Part shown: piece after piece, positions 9,698-36,928 of the stretch
Numbering within the stretch: position 1 is the first letter of the stretch
Layout: each line of letters begins with the position of its first letter
Origin: an uncultured bacterium
GTDB taxonomy: Bacteria; Bacillota; Clostridia; Oscillospirales; Oscillospiraceae
Assembly (NCBI GenBank): GCA_947643715.1
Contig: CANRXB010000026.1
Span: 1-36,928 of the forward strand
Direction of reading: 5' to 3'
Length of the DNA stretch: 36,928 nucleotides
The notes under the pieces: generated by a model
Seen by the model: the letters and a program-made list of their open reading frames with translations, nothing else
Database searches by the model: none
Told to the model about the DNA's origin: nothing
Position numbers and translations under genes: made by a program

Positions 9698-9724
9698 CAG
9701 TTTTCCTCCTCATTGCCTCCGGCG

Positions 9725-9880
9725 GGTCACTTTTCCCGCGTGGGAAAAGTGACCAAAAGGACGCTTAGGGGGAAGATCCGGTTCGGTTTCGGGAGCCAAG
9801 GGCGCTCCCTCGCTCACAGGATCTTCCCCCTAAGGACCCCTTTTACGCAGGGCCTCTGCTCCTTCCGGGTCGATGACCCT
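9725..9880 (-). repeat. Composite double-hairpin repeat, copy A
   Basis: Two nested structures in non-coding DNA. The first is a perfect 13-bp hairpin GGTCACTTTTCCC/GGGAAAAGTGACC (9725-9737 with 9742-9754, loop GCGT). The second has perfect 16-bp arms CTTAGGGGGAAGATCC/GGATCTTCCCCCTAAG (9764-9779 with 9819-9834) enclosing a small GGGAGC/GCTCCC hairpin. On the minus strand the element starts with a GC-rich block ending AGGCCCTGCGTAAAAGGGG. A second copy in opposite orientation is at 10765-10911. The gap from here to 9978 holds further GC-rich sequence with no convincing gene. Confidence 0.85.
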
Positions 9881-9978
9881 TCCGGCGCTCATTGCTTTCC
9901 GACTCGTTTCCTGTTGGCTTCGCTCAGCCGCTCACGTTCCTGCGTCACTCATCGTAGCCGCAGGTCACCTCCCGCGCC

Positions 9979-10188
9979 TCACGGTTCGTCGCTCCGGCCT
10001 GCCAGATAGTCCAGCGACACGCCGAAAAAGTCAGCGATCCTGGCCGCGTTTGAAATCGTTGGTTCGGTCCCTCCGTGTTCGTAGCGGCAATAGGTAGAGT
10101 ATCGGATATGGAGTATGTGTGCTGTATCTTCCTGAGTCAGCCCTCGCTTTTGCCTACATATGCGCAGCCGTGTGCTAAAGTTTTCCAA
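9979..10188 (-). CDS. XRE-family helix-turn-helix regulator
   Basis: 69 residues: one complete XRE/Cro-CI helix-turn-helix domain and almost nothing else. Key features are RLRICRQKRGLTQEDTAHILHIRYSTYCRYEHGGTEPT, with the turn between TQEDTAHIL and STYCRYE, and the C-terminal helix AARIADFFGVSLDYLAGRSDEP typical of the family. Translation starts at a TTG (10186-10188) behind AAGGAGG. It diverges from a 96-residue gene; the shared 114-bp region has a perfect sigma-A promoter for that gene with a palindrome in its spacer, a natural repressor site. Both genes lie between inverted copies of a hairpin repeat. Confidence 0.88.
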   Translation of the reverse strand: MENFSTRLRICRQKRGLTQEDTAHILHIRYSTYCRYEHGGTEPTISNAARIADFFGVSLDYLAGRSDEP

Positions 10189-10206
10189 GCACAGACCTCC
10201 TTATAA

Positions 10207-10235
10207 TTGACAACTTATATATGAAGTGTTATAAT
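10207..10235 (+). promoter_or_regulatory. Consensus sigma-A promoter with embedded palindrome
   Basis: TTGACA (10207-10212), exactly 17 bp, TATAAT (10230-10235): both hexamers match consensus perfectly. ACTT (10213-10216) and AAGT (10224-10227) form an imperfect palindrome across the spacer, where a small XRE protein could block polymerase. It drives the gene at 10303. Confidence 0.85.
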
Positions 10236-10302
10236 AGAAGTGCTGAATAGGATGGTGAGAGTCCACATCAAAAATTACTATTGAGAGCTGATTAAGGAAA
10301 GG

Positions 10303-10593
10303 GTGAATGACATGATACCAGAGTTGGAATCATTGTATGTCAAGTCGTATGAGAGATCTGACTTGTCATGGTGGCTGATGGACCGGGACATGATCCGGGA
10401 ATATGAGGAAAATGTCCGTCGTGTGGAGAACAGATATGAACGTCTATCGGAAGTACTGTCCGGCAAGGAGTTGGAAATGCTCCAGCGTTTGGCAGAAGTC
10501 AAAGACGACAGTACGGATGCAGAGCGGCGGATATTTTTTACGCAAGGGTTTTGTGCGGGGTTGCGGCTAGGGACGCTGTGTGCCCTTCGTTGA
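10303..10593 (+). CDS. 96-residue helical protein of unknown function
   Basis: Sequence starts MNDMIPELESLYVKSYERSDLSWW and ends FFTQGFCAGLRLGTLCALR. It is predicted to be nearly all helical and charged (REYEENVRRVENRYERLSEVLSGKELEMLQRLAEV), with no membrane segment. The layout, an N-terminal ELESLY segment, a central Glu/Leu-rich helix and a C-terminal F-x-x-G-F-x-x-G-x-R motif, reminds me of DUF6809-type proteins from clostridial mobile elements, but I cannot confirm that. A GTG start at 10303 follows AAGGAAAGG; an ATG at 10312 is the alternative. A consensus promoter lies 68 bp upstream, probably controlled by the divergent XRE protein. Confidence 0.7.
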   Translation: MNDMIPELESLYVKSYERSDLSWWLMDRDMIREYEENVRRVENRYERLSEVLSGKELEMLQRLAEVKDDSTDAERRIFFTQGFCAGLRLGTLCALR

Positions 10594-10764
10594 TCGTTGG
10601 GACGAGTAGGATGGATCGGTGGTCCAGCGGGAGGGATCATATACGGGGGACCACTCAGGCGCTGGGAGGGAGGGGCATCCTCATAGTACATAGACCGTCA
10701 GGCCCATGTGGGCCGGACAGCGAAGTGGGCGCCCATCCGTAAGCCACAGTAGCCGAAAGGGATC

Positions 10765-10911
10765 CTTGCCTCGTCCCGGGCGCAGGCCTCCGTAAAGCGG
10801 GATTCTCAAGGGGGAAAAAGTGCGAGCCTGCGAGCATTTTCCCCCTTGAGCGCTCTCTTTGGTCACTTTCTCTCGCGTGAGAGAAAGTGACGCCCCGCAG
10901 GGCGATGCCCT
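10765..10911 (+). repeat. Composite double-hairpin repeat, copy B
   Basis: Same architecture as copy A, in opposite orientation. A block CGCAGGCCTCCGTAAAGCGGG precedes 14-bp arms CTCAAGGGGGAAAA/TTTTCCCCCTTGAG (10805-10818 with 10837-10850), then a 10-bp link and a perfect 13-bp hairpin GTCACTTTCTCTC/GAGAGAAAGTGAC (10862-10874 with 10879-10891, loop GCGT), then CAGGGC/GCCCTG. Stems differ in sequence from copy A but keep pairing. The whole 10594-10930 interval contains this repeat and no gene I can support. Confidence 0.85.
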
Positions 10912-10930
10912 GATCCCGATGACTGCTTTG

Positions 10931-30026: not shown

Positions 30027-30053
30027 GGTCGTACCATGAACGTGGATGAAAGA

Positions 30054-30152
30054 ACACAGGGGCGCTGGGGATCTTTCCCGGCTGAGATGTGGGGCGAGAA
30101 GCGGCTCCCGGTCCCTCGTACCTGATCCGGGCAATGCCGGCGTAGGGAGTGT
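30054..30152 (+). ncRNA. TPP riboswitch (THI element)
   Basis: The conserved blocks are all present in order: GGGGCGCTGGGG, GGCTGAGATG, ACCTGATCCGGGCAATGCCGG and CGTAGGGAGT; ACAC/GTGT at the ends closes P1. It binds thiamine pyrophosphate and should switch off thiT and the HAD gene when thiamine is plentiful, through the terminator at 30186-30230. Confidence 0.97.
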
Positions 30153-30185
30153 ATCCGACGAGAAGAGCCATCGTGTCGTCCCTCC

Positions 30186-36486: not shown

Positions 36487-36928
36487 ATGATCTCACACGG
36501 CAAGGACTTGAAGATCTTCTCCGGCAGCTCCAACAAGGCGTTGGCCTTGGGCATCTGCAAGGAGCTGAGTATCCCCCTTGGCAGCGCCGAGACCGGCGCC
36601 TTTTCCGACGGCGAAAACTTTGTGTCCATCTTTGAGACCGTCCGCGGTTCCGATGTGTTCGTGGTCCAGTCCACCAGCTCTCCCGTGAACGACAACCTGA
36701 TGGAGCTGCTCATCATGATCGACGCGCTCAAGCGTGCCTCCGCCGGCCGGATCACCGCCGTCATCCCGTATTTCGGCTACGCCCGGCAGGACCGCAAGAC
36801 CAAACCGCGCGACCCCATCTCGGCCAAGCTGGTGGCCAACCTGATCACCCGAGCGGGTGCCGACCGGGTGCTGACCATGGACCTCCACGCCAACCAGATC
36901 CAGGGCTTCTTCGACATCCCGGTGGACA
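36487..36928 (+). CDS. prs: Ribose-phosphate pyrophosphokinase, N-terminal part (cut by window end)
   Basis: 147 codons to the window edge. Makes PRPP from ribose 5-phosphate and ATP for nucleotide, histidine and NAD synthesis. It begins [20 protein letters not shown], then [66 protein letters not shown] with the ATP-binding FGYARQDRK and, near the end, [17 protein letters not shown] with the metal-binding His. An ATG three codons earlier (36478) has the ribosome-like AGAGGA very close; 36487 is preferred because relatives I remember start MNSHGKD or similar. Confidence 0.95.

Follow-up and report, generated by a model that had tools for sequence, protein, structure and literature searches.

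A dispersed element with hairpin ends, probably non-autonomous and MITE-like, encloses an XRE-DUF6809 gene pair in Oscillospiraceae

Introduction

What is a divergent pair of small genes doing between two inverted copies of an elaborate hairpin repeat? The question arises in the window, by which we mean the whole stretch of 36,928 nucleotides analysed here, where inverted double-hairpin copies stand on both sides of an XRE regulator and a DUF6809 protein. A first-pass annotation had read the two repeats as the ends of a single XRE-bearing unit, possibly a mobile cassette. We conclude that the window unit is probably one copy of a dispersed, non-autonomous element of a MITE-like or foldback-like kind, with hairpin ends and a family-wide distribution, that carries an XRE-DUF6809 pair at this locus. 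Such an element takes up intergenic DNA and carries regulators, and it raises a specific question, namely what enzyme recognises its ends.

Results

Two inverted double-hairpin ends bound the window unit

Two covariance models were used throughout, R1, built from three ends of the window's own genome (G000), and R2, a refined version with both window ends among its seeds. An inverted-repeat search of the window recovered the two inverted copies with their parts in the order first described, and Pfam assigned the two divergent genes between them to XRE/HTH_3 (minus strand) and DUF6809 (plus strand). The features of the unit are as follows.

9714-9846, minus (outward sense): left end, copy A; short hairpin, link, long-arm hairpin and CGTAAA block
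9725-9754, minus: short hairpin of copy A; 13 bp with a 4-nt loop, arms 9725-9737 and 9742-9754, 100% paired
9755-9843, minus: long-arm hairpin of copy A; arms 9755-9782 and 9816-9843, 28 nt, 82% complementary
9979-10188, minus: XRE family regulator; 69 aa, TTG start, Pfam HTH_3 (E 4.8e-15)
10207-10235, plus: promoter-like TTGACA-17-TATAAT directed toward DUF6809; 12 of 12 consensus bases
10303-10593, plus: DUF6809 protein; 96 aa, PF20648 (E 4.7e-8, 34.2 bits against a cut-off of 27)
10699-10904, plus: longer right terminal block, common to the pth-mfd unit (88.8% over 206 bp)
10792-10903, plus (outward sense): right end, copy B; 136.5 bits with R1 and 106 bits with R2, seed of both models
10805-10850, plus: long-arm hairpin of copy B; 14-bp arms 10805-10818 and 10837-10850, 100% paired
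10862-10891, plus: short hairpin of copy B; 13 bp, arms 10862-10874 and 10879-10891, 100% paired
10897-10912, plus: tip palindrome GCAGGGCGATGCCCTG, past the right hairpin; variant forms at several other ends

As had been claimed, the stems of the two copies differ in sequence and remain paired, completely so in both short hairpins and in the arms of copy B; the long arms of copy A form a core of ~16 pairs in the predicted fold. Copy A scores 71.9 bits with R1 and 83.8 bits with R2, of which it is a seed. Folding z-scores are -6.88 for copy A and -5.29 for copy B, with 0 of 200 shuffles equally stable in either case, and the short-hairpin pattern occurs twice in the window against an expectation of 0.00. 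At the left tip, a GCAGGGCGATGCCCTG-type palindrome is not clearly visible. The earlier reading had pointed to target duplications as something to look for beyond the two ends; none could be defined by eye or by alignment, because the outer palindromes run into the flanks and leave no sharp outer border. Elsewhere in the window, a TPP riboswitch lies at 30048-30165 (59.8 bits, gathering score 54.3).

In G000 itself the short-hairpin pattern has five occurrences, two in the window, two on contig C6 and a single one on C13. The two on C6 face outward, span ~1.1 kb, lie between genes that we take, from their sequence, to be pth and mfd, and enclose an XRE gene together with a divergently oriented gene for a 99-aa protein. 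The 99-aa protein has no Pfam score at E<=0.1 and is 33% identical over 94 aa to its partner at the same site in G236; it is itself a seed of the cargo HMM, whose score for it proves nothing. R2 makes seven matches in this genome at E<=1e-5 (two each on C26 and C6, and one each on C19, C18 and C13). An XRE gene lies on the inner side of the end on C19, C18 and C13, accompanied on C19 by a DUF6809-like gene and on C18 by a further divergent ORF seen by eye; on C18 other sequence intervenes between the genes and the end. A second end was not recognised on C19, C18 or C13. Contig C6 begins with the same 55 bases that end the window (36874-36928), so the two contigs probably join, which would place the pth-mfd unit ~27 kb from the window unit. 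The same genome also holds a relic of a Y1 transposase with three stops (G000:C40:19923-20180).

Stem changes are compensatory and nearly all Watson-Crick

Pairing was assessed on 62 ends, 61 of them distinct, aligned to the model, a fitted alignment that in itself favours pairing and in which 97.3% of the cells are paired. Both partners have changed in 18 of 30 pairs, where shuffles give 10.7, and double-sided changes fill 190 cells, where shuffles give 41 and controls with a slid partner column give 11-31. These compensatory changes back the pairing that had been put down to selection on structure; the count of further pair types, 39 against 36.1 in shuffles, is unexceptional (67 of 500 shuffles reach 39). 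Very few of the paired cells in the two hairpins are G-U, namely 5 of 789 and 2 of 785 (0.3-0.6%; 7 of 1574 in total), compared with 21 of 187 (11%) in a small control of eight folded tRNAs. The pattern extends to 30 ends from outside the genus, where variation affects both partners of 14 of 14 and 10 of 13 hairpin pairs and G-U accounts for 8 of 386 and 8 of 366 paired cells. The weak outer 3-bp helix departs from it, with G-U in 13 of 154 paired cells among the 62 ends and 28 of 81 among the 30 extra-genus ends.

Stems that differ in sequence and pair almost exclusively by Watson-Crick rules point to DNA palindromes, and we read the hairpins as palindromes that are probably maintained at the DNA level, with repair by arm copying as the alternative. 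Covariation of this nearly Watson-Crick-only kind also suggests a way to separate DNA-level from RNA-level hairpins.

Could the ends instead be RNA structures, acting as 3' stabilisers or terminators of two divergent mRNAs, so that the whole unit is a resident regulatory locus? Outward transcription of both genes crosses the ends in sense orientation, both ends have strong folds, and the outer 3-bp helix contains G-U. We nevertheless regard this as unlikely, given how nearly all changes in the hairpins are Watson-Crick and that 12 of the 26 pairs described below enclose no recognised gene. Between 9690 and 10940 there is a single terminator-like match, a stem of five pairs at 9713, where shuffles give 1.3, and no Rfam family reached its gathering score with the ends; at relaxed settings only weak, sub-threshold matches to the mir-967, mir-9229 and mir-TAR models appeared.

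Alternatively, template-switch correction of palindromes might maintain the stem complementarity with no selection on a binding structure, the element being a passive dispersed repeat; arm copying of this kind is expected to leave few G-U pairs and few mismatches, as seen in both hairpins. Several stem positions, however, are invariant across the 61 distinct ends while their neighbours vary, a pattern that arm copying alone leaves unexplained, and we judge this explanation quite unlikely.

The ends are dispersed, face outward in pairs, and enclose variable cargo

A covariance-model search of family genomes, which had been proposed as a check, finds the repeat widely dispersed. R1 has matches in 37 of 42 genomes of the same genus (E<=0.1), and the element comes with a searchable model, R2, which has matches in 58 of the 200 genomes sampled from a single bacterial family, representing 45 of its 106 genera (E<=1e-5, with 18 candidates scored per genome).

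To lessen choice bias, a greedy census was made of the R2 matches listed for 10 genomes, partly at E<=1e-6. Among the 166 ends in these listed matches there were 45 outward pairs, two inward pairs, three direct pairs and 69 single ends, in keeping with the claim that the repeats are the two ends of one unit. One of the two inward pairs (contig C25 of G207) arose only because the greedy procedure had already assigned one member, the left one, of a genuine outward pair, and some of the singles have a weaker partner that was missed, as on contig C8 of G228, where the partner has a lower score. Pair sizes among the matches listed run from 571 to 1863 bp, with clusters near 600, 780 and 1060-1430 bp. 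Overall, two inverted ends made of DNA palindromes bound a unit of ~0.4-1.9 kb with a variable interior.

Within the genus, where 20 regions had been chosen for showing nearby ends, the cargo of 26 outward pairs (the window and C6 units included) was typed by eye and by HMM. Nine pairs enclose an XRE gene with a DUF6809-like gene, three an XRE gene with a ribbon-helix-helix (RHH) gene, one two XRE genes, one an RHH-like gene with another protein, and 12 no recognised gene. Pfam searches of the 79 ORFs of at least 80 aa inside these pairs returned HTH and DUF6809 families only (E<=0.001). No transposase gene was found inside the 26 pairs, by Pfam on ORFs of at least 80 aa and by eye on shorter ones, and there was no autonomous relative carrying a transposase among the pairs read.

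A small XRE, DUF6809 or RHH gene lies within 1.35 kb on the inner side of 35 of 91 ends and on the outer side of one of 91, the full 1.35 kb being present for 88 inner and 82 outer sides; the seeds of the cargo HMMs come from the same loci, many of them picked via pairs, which inflates the inner count and leaves the outer count unaffected.

Outside the genus we considered 31 loci, namely the 29 best R2 loci together with L008 and L011. An outward partner is present in 12 of them (E<=0.001), giving units that measure, between their outer edges, 391-590 bp in 11 cases and 934 bp in one; a thirteenth outward pair, at L189, is cut by the contig end. The cargo HMMs detect no cargo gene in the 12 paired loci, and by blastn their ends are much more shared than their interiors.

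Some copies, then, have no recognised gene and others have a small regulator pair. The XRE-bearing class described in the first-pass annotation does recur, as XRE with DUF6809 or with RHH, but the link that it drew between repeat and XRE genes is not a specific one, with 12 of 26 genus pairs and 12 of 31 extra-genus loci devoid of a recognised cargo gene. A scatter of single, gene-less repeats had been named as the outcome that would speak against a cassette, and the picture is divided: the ends are often paired, yet 69 of the 166 in the matches listed are single, and often gene-less.

The 2.1-Mb genome G214 is especially rich in ends, with 148 matches (E<=0.001), and 12 of the 13 pairs listed for it measure 520-584 bp, the remaining one 288 bp. 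Directly outside several pairs in this genome (L139-L158) there are more repeated palindromes. At the outer tips of L139, L140, L141, L142 and others, overlapping palindromes follow one another, by eye, in the order a-b-a'-b', from which an H-type pseudoknot might form when the DNA is single-stranded. We also note that related ends occur on the IMG/VR contigs L246, L254, L264, L267, L268 and L269, some as outward pairs, and that further pattern matches, in different surroundings, have the TTTGGTTACTTT hairpin in common.

Sites are occupied in some species, empty in others, and differ in cargo

The gene order around the window unit, parA-rsmG-o118-(gap)-o126-serS, is kept in the 20 relatives fetched of 41, with o126 unrecognised by tblastn in three of the 20. 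In none of these 20 does blastn (supplemented by covariance models on three of them) find both ends in the rsmG-serS gap; relatives that have the site and lack the unit, for which the annotation had suggested looking, thus exist. The gap of G231 has one degenerate end (34.8 bits) and no gene, that of G237 an XRE gene alone with no recognised ends and a 20.8-bit R2 match inside the XRE frame, and that of G212 an XRE-DUF6809 pair that lacks ends. An ORF that presumably encodes MscL is present in the gap of 10 of these 20 genomes, including G212 (L041, L042, L044, L046-L052).

At pth-mfd, G000 and G236 have a unit and G066 has none. A further site (site 2) has an XRE-DUF6809 unit in G207, G208 and G235, a gene-less unit in G211, and none in G221, and in L138 it retains a remnant with a partial DUF6809 frame. 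The rsmG-serS, pth-mfd and site 2 positions are therefore occupied in some species and empty in others, a difference that may reflect gain or loss. At another site (site 1), the cargo differs between species: G207 and G235 have XRE-RHH (XRE 92% and RHH 82% identical), G208 has DUF6809-XRE, and G211 has no gene that could be recognised; the flanks are 83-96% identical to those of G207.

The site 1 element of G208 changes its affinity along its length. Across the left 270 bp it is 90-94% identical to its G207 counterpart (for the first 100 bp, another copy in G208 is an equally good match), its cargo has no counterpart in the G207 element, its right end is closer to the site 2 element of its own genome (90.5% over 358 bp; 0.90-0.96 against 0.79-0.87 per comparison window), and past the right end the flanks match G207 again at 92-97%. 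This switching of similarity identifies the element as a mosaic of two copies, so the ends can act as homology for the exchange of cargo. In a comparison of 21 elements from four genomes, mean end identity is 0.848 at the same site (n=30), 0.863 within the same genome (n=196) and 0.841 between unrelated ends (n=584), and, of 42 ends, 22 have their nearest neighbour in the same genome, six at the same site, 12 elsewhere and two at the other end of the same element. Because the means are so close, the case for exchange rests mainly on the one mosaic and on G211. Occupation of the same sites in several species suits slow turnover more than active jumping.

The unit might also have arisen by chance, two unrelated solo repeats having landed beside a resident XRE-DUF6809 locus. 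The XRE gene of G237 and the XRE-DUF6809 pair of G212, both in the rsmG-serS interval and both without recognised ends, would fit such a history, as would the 69 single ends among the census matches listed. It is made improbable by the preponderance of outward over inward pairs in the same listed matches (45 against two), by cargo that lies inside 35 of 91 ends and outside one, and by the recurrence of this arrangement at the pth-mfd site of both G000 and G236.

The gene pair in the window and its relatives

Relatives of the window XRE protein are 78% identical in G234, 68% in G226 and 67% in G225, and XRE-DUF6809 pairs of the window type stand at other loci, without ends, in these three genomes. 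In eight comparisons of such partners, conservation is lower for DUF6809 (or the protein in its place) than for XRE in six (for example 54 against 78%, 29 against 68%, 33 against 69% and 73 against 97%), the same in one (96%) and higher in one (69 against 52%). The DUF6809 protein may be an anti-repressor or an effector controlled by XRE. An imperfect palindrome, ACTTATATATGAAGT, lies between the two hexamers of the promoter at 10207-10235, for which shuffles yield 0.7 matches of at least 9 of 12 bases, and is a putative operator; the stretch from hexamer to hexamer resembles that beside the related XRE-DUF6809 pair in G234.

Nine of 10 aligned cargo proteins match PF20648 at E<=0.01, the pth-mfd protein being the exception. 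Among 30 DUF6809 loci taken from across the family, ends accompany none (E<=0.01) and a divergent XRE gene, by the cassette HMM, accompanies three, so there is no general link between DUF6809 and the element. The 10 DUF6809 cargo proteins had no match in PHROGs at E<=0.01, and PADLOC anti-phage models gave only weak JetD scores from two models (E 0.028 and 0.033), each for one of the 10 proteins. One cassette DUF6809 protein had no match in phage and plasmid collections at E<=0.001, and a scan of viral contigs with four such proteins yielded no confirmed case. Our literature search, which covered mostly open-access papers by title and abstract opening, found none that treats DUF6809 by name.

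Discussion

How might a unit of this kind move and persist? On the reading that we prefer, a non-autonomous element with hairpin ends, an enzyme supplied in trans would recognise the palindromes, either as DNA hairpins or as paired duplex sites, and would move the unit into intergenic gaps. The XRE protein would repress the common divergent promoter and so hold both itself and DUF6809 low, making the XRE-DUF6809 pair a self-contained module able to sit beside any gene. The occurrence of XRE-DUF6809 pairs without ends in G234, G226, G225 and G212 counts against this account, and no mobilising enzyme was identified among the transposase families looked at (Y1/RAYT and Tn3). A REPIN-like element mobilised by a Y1/RAYT transposase, for which one could cite the similar outline (inverted palindromes, high copy number, no transposase of its own) and the single Y1 match in each of the copy-rich genomes G207 and G214, is highly improbable, since PF01797 has no match in copy-rich G208, G236, G237, G235, G211, G221, G204 and G145, several of which are incomplete genomes, and G224 and G227 have 12 and 10 PF01797 matches and no repeat (E<=0.1).

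A bolder proposal, which we put forward tentatively and consider doubtful, is that these units form a new class of cassette, in which ends conserved as palindrome sets, and not as sequence, would be read by a structure-reading recombinase and interchangeable, self-repressing XRE-DUF6809 or XRE-RHH pairs would be swapped between sites through the ends, in integron-like fashion and without an integron integrase. No description of this repeat was found in the mostly open-access literature as surveyed by titles and abstract openings.

Comparison with known elements

The unit shares several features with MITEs: it is short (the longest pair among the matches listed is 1863 bp), has no transposase gene in the pairs read, ends in terminal inverted repeats, and exists in many copies, as seen in the 45 outward pairs among the matches listed and the 148 ends of G214. 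By this analogy, it would work like a MITE with cargo.

TIMEs, the Tn3-derived inverted-repeat miniature elements, have 38-bp Tn3 ends and target duplications of 5-6 bp (PMC4133298). They are likewise non-autonomous, have inverted ends and no transposase, and include larger derivatives with gene modules (PMC4133298); here, in contrast, the ends are palindrome sets of ~85-170 bp and no duplication was found. Identity with TIMEs was rejected, as a Tn3 transposase match was present in 0 of 42 genomes (E<=0.001).

The REP/REPIN-RAYT system offers a second comparison. REP sequences resemble the present ends in being palindromic, numerous and of alternating orientation (PMC2817692), and differ from what we describe here, double-hairpin ends and units of 0.4-1.9 kb. 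Identity with REPIN/RAYT was also rejected, the distribution of Y1 being unfit to the copy-rich genomes.

In mobile insertion cassettes (MICs), the ends copy a known insertion sequence. A passenger gene between inverted ends, with no transposase, is common to MICs and to the present unit; no insertion sequence with such ends was met among the loci read here. Integron cassettes, finally, have one attC per unit. They resemble the element described here in that structure is kept more than sequence and in their small, exchangeable cargo, and the difference lies in the architecture, which here comprises two inverted ends per unit.
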